DNA of 50,625 nt from Acidobacteriota bacterium (GTDB lineage Bacteria > Acidobacteriota > Blastocatellia > UBA7656): positions 1-50,625 of the forward strand of contig JACQDB010000156.1 in NCBI GenBank assembly GCA_016201275.1. The letters are read 5' to 3'. Below the pieces are notes generated by a model that worked only from the letters and a program-made list of their open reading frames with translations, was not told where the DNA came from and did not search any database. Below, one piece after another: positions 30,497 to 35,016 of this stretch (position 1 is the first letter of the stretch; each line of letters begins with the position of its first letter). The translations under genes were made by a program, and so were the position numbers.

Positions 30497-30541
30497 GCAA
30501 AGGCTTGAAACTGGCTACTGTAGCCGGTTTCAAGCCTTTGC
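30497..30541. terminator. Bidirectional hairpin between converging genes
   Basis: Arms GCAAAGGCTTGAAACTGGCTAC (given as two parts: GCAAAGGCTTG and AAACTGGCTAC) pair with 30520-30541 over 22 bases with one wobble and almost no loop. It lies between the MFS and Nfu stops. The 21-bp core recurs at 267-287, so it may be a dispersed palindrome recruited as a terminator. Confidence 0.65.
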
Positions 30542-30564: not shown

Positions 30565-31158
30565 CTACTTCGATGGCGCGTAAAACGGATTCTGTCCGGC
30601 GGCGTGATCGGTCGCGTCGAAGACGTTTTGAATTTGCGGCAGTTCTTCGCGCAACAATTTTTCGACGCCCATCTTCAAGGTCACGTCTGCCGCGCCGCAC
30701 CCCTGACAACCGCCGCCCATTCGCAGAAAGACGTTGTTATCGGTGACATCCAACAATTCCACATAACCGCCGTGCGAGGCGACGCCGGGATTGATCTGCT
30801 CGTCGAGTATGCGTTGAATGCGCTCTTTCAATTCCTGTACGGCAACCATTTCGCCTTCAGGAATCGGCGGCGGCGGATTCAAAAATAAACGAATCGCTCC
30901 GCCTATACGTTTGCCGACCTGCCGCCAGTCATCGTGTCCGGCTTTGGTGACGGCGACCAAATTATCGTTGATCTCGACTTTCGCAATGCCGGGGATGGCA
31001 AAAAGATTCAACGCCAGTCGGTTGTCTTTTGCCTCTTCCTTGCTGGTGAAGACTGCGGGCGAGCCTTCGTAAACCGTGCGGTCAACGGTGAAGCGGCAGA
31101 TGTCGGCGTCTTGCTGATCTACTTCGGCTCTGATTTTAATCTCTGGTGCTGCGCTCAT
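30565..31158 (-). CDS. NfuA-type iron-sulfur scaffold protein
   Basis: 197 residues in two parts: an N-terminal Nfu-type scaffold domain (residues 1-90) and a C-terminal NifU-like domain with the CxxC cluster-binding motif in GGGCQGCGAAD (about 150-160). It carries Fe-S clusters to target enzymes, and its location beside a radical SAM gene and an endonuclease III-like gene is suggestive, though it is separated from them by 140 bp. AAGGAG precedes the ATG. Confidence 0.88.
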   Translation of the reverse strand: MSAAPEIKIRAEVDQQDADICRFTVDRTVYEGSPAVFTSKEEAKDNRLALNLFAIPGIAKVEINDNLVAVTKAGHDDWRQVGKRIGGAIRLFLNPPPPIPEGEMVAVQELKERIQRILDEQINPGVASHGGYVELLDVTDNNVFLRMGGGCQGCGAADVTLKMGVEKLLREELPQIQNVFDATDHAAGQNPFYAPSK

Positions 31159-31298
31159 TTTGATTGCTCCTTTTTGTGCGAACGAAATTCGCTTCGTCCA
31201 TGATTCACTCTGCTGTAAAGCGAAAATTCATTATACCCTCTTGGCGTAGAGGTTTCCAAATTCGCGGTCATCATTCATTTTTGAATTTGCCGTTTCCC

Positions 31299-32810
31299 TT
31301 AAAGCTGTGAGCGTTTTTCCAAAAGACCAAACTGGTCTCGTGTCGGCTCGGCTCAACAAAACCACGCTTCGGTTAAACGCGGTGGCTTGCTAGGCGACGC
31401 GGAAAGATGCGCTCTGGCAAGGCTCGCGGTTTCCTTGCCGCGCCTTTGCTCAACCAAATCGCGCAGGCGATAAAACGTCACGGCGGCGTCTTCATTGATT
31501 TGCGCGGCGCGTTCGACCAATGCCGCTACGCGCTTGTGCAATTCGTCCATGCGCGGATCGGGATGCTGCCATACGTATGTAAACGCCGGTTGATTCAACT
31601 GACCAAGCCACGATGGAGTTTCTTCGCGTTGCAAGAGCAGAGAACCCGGCGGCACCAATAAGCGAATGGAATACTGCACCGGATCAAGCGCGTCAATCAG
31701 ATTTTCGCTTTCGACGAAATTCAGCACCTCCAGAAAATCATCCAGCGTCGTCCACGGCGTGAACGACACCAGCGACGGGCGCAAGGCAATACCGGCGGCG
31801 CGCAAAATTCGCAAAGCGGTAAACACATCGGCGCGGGTGTGGCCTTTTTCCAGATGATGCAACACCTTGTCGCTCAGAGATTCCACCGCCGATACTACAA
31901 AGATGCAGCCGCAGTTAGCCAACTCCGTAAATAAATCTTCGTGCTTGATGATGTGTTCAACCTTCACCGTGCAATCGAAAGTCAGACGCGGGAATTCTTC
32001 GTGCATAGCGCGCACCAGGCGCAAGGCGTGCGTCGGGCCATTAAAAAAATCGGGGTCGCCAAAGGTGATATGCGCTGCGCCTGCGGCCACCAACTGGCGA
32101 ATGTCTTGCAGCACCACGTCCACAGGCACGATGAAAAACCGGCCTTCATAAACCGGCGGTATCGGGCAATGCGTGCAATGATGCAGACAACCGCGACTCG
32201 CTTCTACATAACCGACCAAGCGTTGTTCGCCGCCATATTCCAAGCGCGCATAACGATTCAAAGCCGGTAAACCATCGCGCTCCGGTTTGGCAAAATTCAA
32301 GCGCACGAGCAGCGGCGCAGCCTCAGCCGTGGTGGTCTTCACGCCTGTAGGAAAGACTTGAGGGCTGGAATTTCTACTCGCTAAAACGCTTTGGATTAAT
32401 GCCACCAGAGGCGCTTCAAACTCGCCGCCGATGATCGAATCGGCAATCGTCGCCAGCAAATAATCGGCATTGAGCGCAGCGTACAAGCCATAAAAACAGA
32501 TGTGGCAATCGGCGTTGAGTCGGCGTATCTCTTGCGCGATTGCCACTCCCAGACGCAAGGCCGTGTGCATCGGCACGGAGATGCCTACGAATTTCGCCTC
32601 CATCACTTTCGCGGCCTCGAAGCCTTCGAGGGAAACATCCAGCGTATCGGCTTCTATGCCTTCGCGGCGCAGAAACCCCAGCGGCATAGCCAGACCCGCA
32701 GGCTGATGTCCAAGCTCGTAACACGAGACCAGCAACACCTGATTTTTCGCGCTGGCCGTTGCGTTGTTGAGGTTATTTTTTTGAAGCGTTAAAACTGTCA
32801 TCACTTTCAT
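31299..32810 (-). CDS. CUAEP-tail radical SAM selenoprotein (UGA read as Sec)
   Basis: A radical SAM enzyme with a B12-binding-like Rossmann N-terminus (about 25-140), lacking the DXHXXG cobalamin ligand, and the CX3CX2C cluster motif at Cys208, Cys212 and Cys215. The ORF ends in ...EAWFC at residue 485, and its TGA (31355-31353) is followed in frame by GCC GAG CCG, giving Cys-Sec-Ala-Glu-Pro, the signature tail of the CUAEP/CCAEP radical SAM family. The frame continues 17 codons to TAA at 31301-31299. A hairpin begins 16 bases after the UGA. If read as stop, the protein ends in Cys485. Substrate unknown. It lies 57 bp after an ATP-grasp gene. Confidence 0.8.
31323..31339 (-). promoter_or_regulatory. 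Bacterial SECIS-like hairpin
   Basis: On the mRNA GAGACCA pairs with UGGUCUU (seven pairs, one G-U) around a GUU loop. The loop starts 20 bases after the in-frame UGA and has G first; bacterial SECIS models expect an apical loop 16-37 bases downstream with a G in its first two positions. The fit supports selenocysteine insertion but is not proof. Confidence 0.6.
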
Positions 32811-32867: not shown

Positions 32868-34103
32868 CTACTCAATGACAAACTCAATCTTCCTGTGCGC
32901 CTCGCGCAAGGCTGCTTCGGCAAGCTGCGGAGTGGCGGCGCGACTGAAAATAAAGCCTAAATAACTTGCGCCTTCCGGCGGCGGCAACAGTTCCTGCGTC
33001 AAGTGTGCCGTGATGAGGACATCTTCAACAGCGGCAACTTGTCGAGCCTCTTCGACGCCGCGCACCTCGCGCAAAATTCCGGCTCGCGGAATCGGTATCA
33101 TCATCGCGCCTGCCGCCAGCGTTTCCCTGTTGCATGGCAACACCTCCTGGCCGAGCGCTTGACGCAAAATTAATTCTTCCAGTGAAATTTTTTCGTCACC
33201 AAATCGCAACGCCCGCGAACATAATCCGCCGATGGCTCGCGCTGCCACTTCGATCACCCATGCGCCTGCGTCATTGATTCGCAACTCGGCGTGAATCGCG
33301 CCTTTCGTAAGTCCCATAGCCCGCGTTGCCGCCTGCACCATTGCGATAATTTCTTGTTGCACGGTCGCAGACAAACGCGAAGGCGTCACATAAATCGTCT
33401 CTTCAAAAAACGGTCCGTCCAAGGGGTCAGGTTTATCAAATATCGCCAGCGGGTTCAGAGTTCCTTCGGTGAGCAAGCCTTCAACGGCAACTTCAAAACC
33501 GGGGATGAAAGCTTCAATAAGGATTTCACGTTGTGCCGCGCCGCCTTTTTTGGCGATGTGCGGCAGCCGCAAAATATTTTCCAAGCGATGAAAAGCTTGC
33601 ACCAATTCCGTGTGATTATCGGCGCGCATCACGCCGCGACTGGTTGACAGAAACACCGGCTTCAGCACGCAAGGATATTCGATGCGGCGCGCCATCTCCG
33701 CTACGTCATCATCAAGCGTGAACGGCCAGAAGCGCGGCACGCGAACGCCTGCTTGACGAAGCGTTTCGCGCATCAGATGTTTGTTCTTTGCCCGTTGCAC
33801 CGAAGCGATGGAGTTGTGCTGCAAGCCCAAAGCCTGCGCGATAAATCCGCTGACAACGGCGGTGTCTTCATCAACCGGAATCACTGCATCAATCGGGAAA
33901 CGCCGAGCATATTCGGCAGCCTGTGCAGCGGCTTTTTCGGGATGGAAAAAATCGAGAGTCAACAAATTTTCTGGATTGCGATTTTCCAGCGAACTGGAAA
34001 TTTCCGACGCCGCTACGACCTCAACGCCGAGTTTCAAAGCGGCATCCAGGTACGCCTTCGTGCGATAGGTCGTCGTCGGTAATAACAAAAGGACTCGCGG
34101 CAT
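32868..34103 (-). CDS. ATP-grasp ligase paired with the radical SAM gene
   Basis: About 411 residues from ATG 34103; an upstream ATG at 34157 is not favoured. It has a pre-ATP-grasp Rossmann domain (VLLLLPTTTYRTKAYLDAAL), then an ATP-grasp fold: CVLKPVFLSTSRGVM near 150, EAFIPGFEVAVEGLL near 200, and HAELRIND...VIEVAARAIGG near 285 with metal ligands. This is the carnosine synthase/BacD/PurT-like branch that joins a carboxylate to an amine through acyl phosphate. It ends 57 bp before the radical SAM gene, likely in one transcript, so the two may modify a common small molecule or peptide. Confidence 0.85.
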   Translation of the reverse strand: MPRVLLLLPTTTYRTKAYLDAALKLGVEVVAASEISSSLENRNPENLLTLDFFHPEKAAAQAAEYARRFPIDAVIPVDEDTAVVSGFIAQALGLQHNSIASVQRAKNKHLMRETLRQAGVRVPRFWPFTLDDDVAEMARRIEYPCVLKPVFLSTSRGVMRADNHTELVQAFHRLENILRLPHIAKKGGAAQREILIEAFIPGFEVAVEGLLTEGTLNPLAIFDKPDPLDGPFFEETIYVTPSRLSATVQQEIIAMVQAATRAMGLTKGAIHAELRINDAGAWVIEVAARAIGGLCSRALRFGDEKISLEELILRQALGQEVLPCNRETLAAGAMMIPIPRAGILREVRGVEEARQVAAVEDVLITAHLTQELLPPPEGASYLGFIFSRAATPQLAEAALREAHRKIEFVIE

Positions 34104-34233
34104 AAACCTAAATCGTAGCGATGCCTCGCGTGAAAAGCAAAGCCGCGATTTTTTCATGCAACCTGGCGACGCACAGTTTTTCGGTTCGAGTTCAGCAGGC
34201 GCAGGCGCGAGGACCGACGTGCGCTTTCAATTA

Positions 34234-35016
34234 TCAAAATTGATTTTGATAATAGTGGCAATAATCAACCAGACAACATTGCTCGCACAGCGGATTTTGC
34301 GGACGGCAAACCGTGCGCCCGTGGCGTATGAAATTGATGTGCGCTTCATAAAAATGCTCTTGCGGAATGATCTGCTCCATCAGTTGATGAGCGTCCGCAT
34401 CGCTGCCTTTTTCCGGTAGCCAGCGCAGGCGGCGGGCGATGCGAAAGATGTGCGTGTCAATGGGAAAGACCGGACGATGACAGGCGAACAACAAAACACA
34501 GGCGACGGTTTTCGGGCCGACACCTGTGAACGAGGAGAGAAAAGCTTTGGCTTCCGCGAGCGACGCATGGCGCAGAAAAGATAAATCCAGCGAGCCGCGT
34601 TGTGCTTTGATGTCATGGAGCAGACGCTTGATGACGAGCGATTTCTGTCTTGCCAAACCGCCCGAACGAATTGCTGCTTCGATGGTCGCGGGGCGTGCGC
34701 GCCGGGCGTCTTCCCAATTCGGGAAGCGTTGTTTGAACGCGGCAAAAGCGCGTTGGCTATTGATATTGGAAGTGGATTGCGAAAGGATGGTTTCGATCAA
34801 CACATCAAGCGGATCGAGATTTTTTTCCAGTTGCGGCAAGCCATAAACCGTTCGCAGATTTTGCCGCACGAAAGGAAAGACGCGCCGCGCCTCTTCTACG
34901 TTTTCGATAGTGGACGATGCAGAAAGTTTTGGTTGAGTGGTTTCATCTTCTCGACGCATGGTTCTATCGTCGGACACATTTTTCGTTTGATGCGAAATCG
35001 TTTTCTTCATAGCCAT
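34234..35016 (-). CDS. Endonuclease III-like DNA glycosylase
   Basis: 260 residues. After a 40-residue charged, disordered lead, an HhH-GPD core: FTGVGPKTVACVLLF carries the helix-hairpin-helix and the catalytic lysine, FPIDTHIFR the catalytic aspartate (corresponding to Lys120 and Asp138 of E. coli Nth). The C-terminal CRPQNPLCEQCCLVDYC is the CX6CX2CX5C 4Fe-4S ligand set. Both residues kept suggests a bifunctional glycosylase/lyase acting on oxidised pyrimidines. It precedes the ATP-grasp gene by 130 bp on the same strand and may be transcribed with it. Confidence 0.9.
   Translation of the reverse strand: MAMKKTISHQTKNVSDDRTMRREDETTQPKLSASSTIENVEEARRVFPFVRQNLRTVYGLPQLEKNLDPLDVLIETILSQSTSNINSQRAFAAFKQRFPNWEDARRARPATIEAAIRSGGLARQKSLVIKRLLHDIKAQRGSLDLSFLRHASLAEAKAFLSSFTGVGPKTVACVLLFACHRPVFPIDTHIFRIARRLRWLPEKGSDADAHQLMEQIIPQEHFYEAHINFIRHGRTVCRPQNPLCEQCCLVDYCHYYQNQF

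Follow-up and report, generated by a model that had tools for sequence, protein, structure and literature searches.

The Locus and Its Genes

The window, by which we mean the whole stretch of 50,625 nucleotides analyzed here (contig JACQDB010000156.1 of an Acidobacteriota bacterium), carries on its reverse strand a gene for a radical SAM protein, the standard reading frame of which runs from 32810 to 31353 and comprises 485 codons. This frame ends in PRLTEAWFC, the last residue being Cys485, followed by TGA; the TGT-TGA pair lies at 31358-31353 and the TGA itself, directly after Trp-Phe-Cys, at 31355-31353. Past the TGA the frame stays open for 17 codons, AEPTRDQFGLLEKRSQL, before reaching a TAA stop at 31301-31299. 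When the UGA, which is codon 486, is read as selenocysteine (Sec), the gene occupies positions 31299..32810 and its predicted product has 503 amino acids, with a tail (31299-31365, reverse strand) of the form Trp-Phe-Cys-UGA-Ala-Glu-Pro. The first-pass annotation had described an in-frame UGA within a Cys-Sec-Ala-Glu-Pro tail, and the frame indeed proceeds from TGT-TGA through AEP to TAA. The protein matches the Radical_SAM domain (PF04055) with 53.9 bits and contains the CX3CX2C motif (32166..32189, reverse strand), the cysteines of which, C208, C212, and C215, would be expected from the motif to hold the [4Fe-4S] cluster. In a comparison of 69 sequences the first two are invariant and the third is conserved in at least 90%.

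Two genes on the same strand flank that of the radical SAM protein, and both are conserved neighbors of the family. At 32868..34157 lies the gene for an ATP-grasp protein with an L-amino acid ligase C-terminal domain, LAL_C2 (PF13535, PF18603), and at 30565..31158 that for an NfuA-like protein combining Nfu_N and NifU domains (PF01106, PF08712). Farther upstream, also on the reverse strand, a gene resembling HhH-GPD DNA glycosylases (34234..35016; PF00730) is absent from the 40 largest clusters of neighboring genes and probably lies outside the system. A terminator-like hairpin with a 20-bp stem (30497..30541), found by a consensus scan that does not amount to proof, separates the converging NfuA-like and MFS genes. 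Between the selenoprotein and NfuA-like genes there is also a perfect TATAAT with a TTGGAA box (31230-31259, reverse strand), because of which the NfuA-like gene may have its own promoter, even if such boxes occur at about the rate expected by chance (3 found in the region, 2.6 expected).

A Named Family and Its Tail among Relatives

The protein belongs to NCBIfam family NF040546, "CUAEP/CCAEP-tail radical SAM (seleno)protein", which it matches with 704.5 bits against a cut-off of 500, covering positions 1-467 of the 468 in the profile. This is the known family that the first-pass annotation had in mind, and since the score is so far above the cut-off, the window protein can be taken as an instance of a kind already named. 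It shares with the family the full-length match, the radical SAM motif, and the C-terminal C-U-A-E-P, and we found nothing to distinguish it from an ordinary Sec-containing member. The recoding as such is no surprise to the specialist, for NCBI already names the family as a selenoprotein. A 2026 inventory recognizes 119 prokaryotic selenoprotein families; its Table 1 does not include the CUAEP family, and the accession NF040546 appears nowhere in the text of that source that was available to us (PMC13188914). Literature searches for the CUAEP/CCAEP tail returned no paper on the family, which we do not thereby claim to be unpublished, and those for the RCCLKC tail of ArsL-like proteins, or for the combination of radical SAM, ATP-grasp, and selenoprotein, were equally negative. 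The literature and databases examined assign no reaction to NF040546.

To see how the tail varies, we have read 151 loci, comprising 30 matches from a phylum sample, the best 80 of at least 591 stretches from named genomes, 40 larger stretches, and one plasmid record. Four of these have no readable tail (L039, L049, L109, and L170) and 15 are duplicates, leaving 132 distinct tails, the window's own included. The codon at the site is TGA in 95 of them, opposite Cys in the other 37 (TGC in 28, TGT in 9), and no other codon occurs there, under a script that required either Sec or Cys at the site or else AEP or SEP after it, so that double deviants would have escaped. Ahead of the site the residues are WFC in 101 tails and WYC in 31. 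Past it, where the first-pass annotation had singled out the conservation of AEP in homologs as the point to examine, AEP is kept in 127 tails and replaced by SEP in only 5. The consensus is therefore C-[Sec/Cys]-[A/S]-E-P. Family members scoring over the cut-off are present in 60 of the 396 genomes of the phylum sample, and the titles of the best 80 of at least 591 stretches from named genomes include Acidobacteria, Nitrospirae, Rokuibacteriota, Poribacteria, Gemmatimonadetes, Chloroflexi, Planctomycetota, and others.

The SECIS-Like Hairpin

Downstream of the UGA, at 31323..31339 on the reverse strand, the transcript could form a SECIS-like hairpin, GAGACCA-GUU-UGGUCUU, with 7 bp in the minimum free energy fold and a GUU loop (31332-31330) that lies 20 nt after the UGA and has G as its first base. 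The published model of bacterial SECIS elements (bSECIS) specifies a loop of 3-9 nt, a stem of 4-16 bp, a distance of 16-37 nt from the UGA, G in the first two loop positions, and an energy of -7.5 kcal/mol or lower, at least in the portion of that source available to us (PMC13188914). With its GUU loop at 20 nt and a best energy of -13.4 kcal/mol including the lower stem, the window's hairpin satisfies these constraints, in agreement with the geometry that the first-pass annotation had proposed. Considered alone, its fold is unremarkable (-16.4 kcal/mol, z = -1.51, with 15 of 200 shuffled sequences as stable), and a special stability of this hairpin by itself is thus unsupported. What raises it above chance is the conservation of the tail and the covariation of the stem across the family.

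A hairpin fitting the model at -7.5 kcal/mol or below is present in 91 of 93 UGA genes versus 19 of 37 Cys genes (two of the 95 UGA genes were left out because bases were unread or the sequence was too short). This threshold is weak by itself, since 180 of 279 shuffled UGA sequences pass it. The mean best energy is -15.6 kcal/mol for the UGA genes versus -8.0 kcal/mol for the Cys genes (Mann-Whitney P = 1e-8, uncorrected for relatedness), and the loop starts 19 or 20 nt past the UGA in 88 of the 93. In the UGA genes, moreover, standard pairs make up 87.8% of the cells at the six stem positions, versus a mean of 68.6% when the 3' arms are reassigned among genes (1000 rounds, the highest giving 72.8%; this dealing-out does not preserve relatedness) and at most 57.7% when the arms are slid by 1-3 bases. 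For the Cys genes the corresponding values are 43.7% and, with reassigned arms, 42.6%. Single stem pairs run through G-C, C-G, U-A, and A-U among the UGA genes. Because the pairs vary and yet stay paired, the hairpin seems to be conserved as an RNA structure, and only in genes with a UGA to be decoded; its covariation appears specific to the UGA members.

The hairpins of two UGA genes are poor, at -2.9 kcal/mol in L125 and -4.5 kcal/mol in L127. L125, from Ktedonosporobacter rubrisoli, lies among Cys members on the family tree, in a genome that has selB, and perhaps represents a recent change or an odd SECIS element. In two members of a single genus (L166 and L167, from genomes G327 and G263) Ser-Glu-Pro-Leu comes after the UGA, then a TAG at +12, and the GUU loop of the SECIS-like hairpin is at +22; since the hairpin comes after the TAG, this element would lie in the 3' untranslated region. 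A scan of the window with Rfam returned no family at gathering threshold; the only weak match over the tail, to Proteo-phage-1 (E = 0.7, 16.4 bits against 42), we attribute to chance.

Selenocysteine Machinery and the History of the Site

The genes selA, selB, selC, and selD, which the first-pass annotation had named beforehand as those on which its reading depended, are all found over their cut-offs in the window's own genome, an assembly of 6.84 Mb that is 98.7% complete. There is one tRNA-Sec (66 bits against a gathering threshold of 47) with anticodon TCA, together with SelB (364 bits; cut-off 242.25), SelA (539.6; cut-off 267.9), and SelD (356.5; cut-off 125). The selD gene (L019) has one in-frame TGA of its own near the start of the match, in the context CAG-Sec-AAK that we take to be the usual Sec site of SelD, and a stem-loop follows downstream; the genome would thus encode at least two candidate selenoproteins.

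Across genomes, selB accompanies the UGA. In the phylum sample it scores over the cut-off in 45 of 48 genomes with a UGA member versus 5 of 10 with a Cys member (P = 0.0024); this count leaves out G188, G301, G001, G355, and G367, in which the members are cut off ahead of the tail, and takes the UGA state of G080, G128, and G213 from the table of phylum-sample matches alone. Among the 50 genomes behind the named loci the figures are 19 of 23 versus 10 of 27 (P = 0.0016), with fewer independent events behind the test than these numbers imply, because 15 of the 17 Cys genomes lacking selB are Nitrospirota. Pooled, 64 of 71 UGA genomes have selB versus 15 of 37 Cys genomes (Fisher P = 8e-8, genomes being treated as independent). 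Against the background of phylum-sample genomes without a family member over the cut-off, 50 of 63 of which have selB, neither group stands out alone (P = 0.054 for UGA, P = 0.11 for Cys). The seven UGA genomes without selB over the cut-off are G080, G287, G110, and those of L097, L119, L069, and L083; completeness is 75% for G080 and G287 and 95% for G110, an assembly of 260 contigs.

A tree of 103 members and two ArsL proteins, built by a quick method with the Sec/Cys letter masked, leaves out 29 of the 132 sequences (28 without a recognized N-terminal motif and one with an unread base). It calls for at least 11 switches between Sec and Cys, versus about 28-30 for shuffled labels, and a minimum of 6 or 7 is required even when only the starred branches are counted. 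The earliest forks past the ArsL root are Sec. The window protein groups with its two relatives from the same taxonomic family and another protein of Blastocatellia, all with Sec. These repeated switches offer natural variants for asking why selenium serves at this position.

Taken together, the conserved tail, the covarying hairpin, the sel genes, and the distribution of selB support the earlier suggestion that the UGA most likely encodes selenocysteine. We regard it as nearly certain, on the strength of these genomic data, that the UGA at 31355-31353 is decoded in this way and that the product is a selenoprotein of 503 residues. SelA, SelB, tRNA-Sec, and SelD would read the codon, steered by the hairpin 20 nt downstream.

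Relationship to ArsL and Gene Neighborhood

The nearest other NCBIfam family of the window protein is ArsL (NF040542), a radical SAM protein of arsinothricin biosynthesis, which it matches with 347.5 bits and thus under the cut-off of 450. The two ArsL proteins compared are 32 and 37% identical to it, and their C-terminal vicinal Cys-Cys aligns on its Cys-Sec. The likeness extends to the CX3CX2C core and to an ATP-grasp gene in two loci encoding the RCCLKC tail; the window protein differs in having about 50 residues more ahead of the tail, which reads WFCUAEP rather than RCCLKC. When arsL alone is expressed in Escherichia coli, hydroxyarsinothricin is reported to form from As(III), and in the part of that work available to us the reaction proposed is a transfer of the 3-amino-3-carboxypropyl group from SAM to As(III) (PMC8552651). 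Other Sec-bearing radical SAM proteins, TIGR04167 and TrsS (NF045646), are included in the accessible Table 1 of the selenoprotein inventory (PMC13188914); neither is among the window protein's 20 NCBIfam matches with E up to 0.001.

For the gene neighborhood we have considered 120 loci including the window, 79 of which have complete flanks (reaching 4.5 kb or more upstream of the site and 3 kb or more downstream), using profiles built from the clusters of neighboring genes themselves and run on six frames. An ATP-grasp gene lies near the radical SAM gene in 43 of the 79 complete loci (36 on the same strand) and is missing in 36, while a NifU-domain gene is present in 31, always on the same strand. 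One or the other occurs in 55 of the 79, and the window has both. The 60 best ATP-grasp matches begin between -3.6 and +1.7 kb, though many flanks reach about 10 kb, and the LAL_C2 domain is found in the window's ATP-grasp protein as well as in one representative of the ATP-grasp cluster. A DUF169 gene occurs in 10 complete loci, 9 of them with Cys members; it stands beside the radical SAM and ATP-grasp genes of Cys members in Nitrospirota (L062, L066, L072, L076, L080, L087, L088, and others). A formyltransferase-like gene on the opposite strand, some 2-3.6 kb upstream, recurs in 11 loci (L092, L097, L099, L100, L107, L114, L115, L124, L125, L130, and L135), and a cluster with one tested member matching Iron_traffic (PF04362) lies near 9 family members. 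Two further recurrent clusters of open reading frames, 59 and 33, run on the wrong strand across the radical SAM gene or the place of the ATP-grasp gene and look like antisense shadows.

The two ArsL-like loci with an RCCLKC tail and an ATP-grasp gene are those of Alicyclobacillus, beside arsM and arsN1, and Priestia, among arsR-type genes; the ATP-grasp protein of the latter, the only one compared, is 24% identical to that of the window. In the Pseudomonas amygdali ArsL locus we saw no ATP-grasp gene within 9.2 kb. The ArsR, ArsM, ArsQ, ArsN1, and arsenic transporter of one ArsL locus gave zero tblastn matches in the window (E 1e-5), and none of them matched more than 4 of the 120 loci. An arsenic operon as the general setting of the CUAEP family can thus be set aside, such genes being absent from most of the 120 loci, and since they are rare near CUAEP loci, arsenic is probably not the general substrate but may be that of some members. 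Among the 120, ArsM-like and ArsR-like matches are found together only in L097, a Sec member from a Chloroflexi metagenome-assembled genome; arsenic-transporter-like matches occur in L092, L099, L100, and L125.

The predicted fold of the window protein, with Sec modeled as Cys, is a confident one, with a mean pLDDT of 92.4 and a value of 84 for residues 481-490. Its best matches among solved folds are AprD4 (Z = 27.1), MgmA (26.1), OxsB (25.8), and TsrM (24.8), enzymes that act on carbon substrates. These are fold matches only, and none is accepted as the identity of the window protein.

What Might the Protein Do?

In functional terms the family poses a puzzle: What would a Cys-Sec pair contribute at the C-terminus of a radical SAM enzyme? 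The parallel with ArsL suggests that in ArsL-like and CUAEP loci alike the radical SAM enzyme may provide a ligase with an unusual amino acid. At the SAM/[4Fe-4S] site, the Cys-Sec pair would hold or activate a soft substrate atom, on which an amino acid would be built; the neighboring ATP-grasp ligase would then join the new amino acid to a second one. The Fe-S cluster would come from the NfuA-like protein. We offer only tentatively, as a possibility that may well prove wrong, this reading of the protein as an ArsL-like enzyme whose product, an unusual amino acid, is then capped by the ligase. Its ties to ArsL and to a gene resembling amino acid ligases nonetheless provide a first testable guess at the product. 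An extension that we consider rather unlikely is that the family represents a widespread selenium-dependent pathway, in which a Sec-tailed, ArsL-like enzyme adds an aminocarboxypropyl group to an element held by Cys-Sec and the ligase turns the outcome into a small peptide. The element in most hosts would then not be arsenic but perhaps another metalloid, a metal, or a chalcogen. If true, this would imply a new class of element-carbon natural product from many uncultured bacteria.

A different function for the same residue has a substantial chance of being correct, if somewhat short of even: the Cys-Sec pair could be a redox arm, forming a selenenylsulfide as the C-terminal Cys-Sec of thioredoxin reductase does, or a donor of hydrogen atoms, in an enzyme performing ordinary 5'-deoxyadenosyl chemistry on a carbon substrate. 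The carbon substrates of the closest solved folds and the lack of arsenic genes near most members are consistent with such a function, and most uncharacterized selenoproteins are thought likely to be redox proteins in the portion of the inventory available to us (PMC13188914). Yet the nearest other family by sequence is ArsL, with its vicinal cysteines at the aligned place, and that same source shows CU pairs recurring in families that deal with metals or organometals, namely HgcA, SaoL, and MbdU (PMC13188914).

That the protein is instead a B12-dependent radical SAM methyltransferase, Sec included, seems quite improbable. An N-terminal match to the B12-binding-like domain PF02310 and the fold resemblance to the B12 enzymes OxsB and TsrM would speak for it; the match, at 31.6 bits, remains under the gathering threshold of 32.1, and ArsL aligns across the N-terminal region also.

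There is next to no likelihood that the UGA is a true stop, with the protein ending at Cys485 and the AEP stretch leftover or untranslated: the frame does halt there under table 11, one record from Thermomicrobium roseum is annotated likewise, and L125, placed in a mostly Cys clade, combines a UGA with a hairpin of hardly any stability, but AEP or SEP is kept in the 95 UGA tails at a site occupied only by UGA or Cys codons, covariation is limited to the UGA genes, the sel genes are present, and selB accompanies the UGA, so that, tail, hairpin, and sel genes concurring, we reject both a true stop and a pseudogene. The T. roseum record bears also on the earlier statement that annotation truncates genes of this kind, which we can substantiate for this one relative: its CDS (L056, 9935-11371) is annotated as a CUAEP/CCAEP-tail protein, yet it ends exactly at the UGA despite the CUAEP encoded downstream, and the AEP tail is lost.
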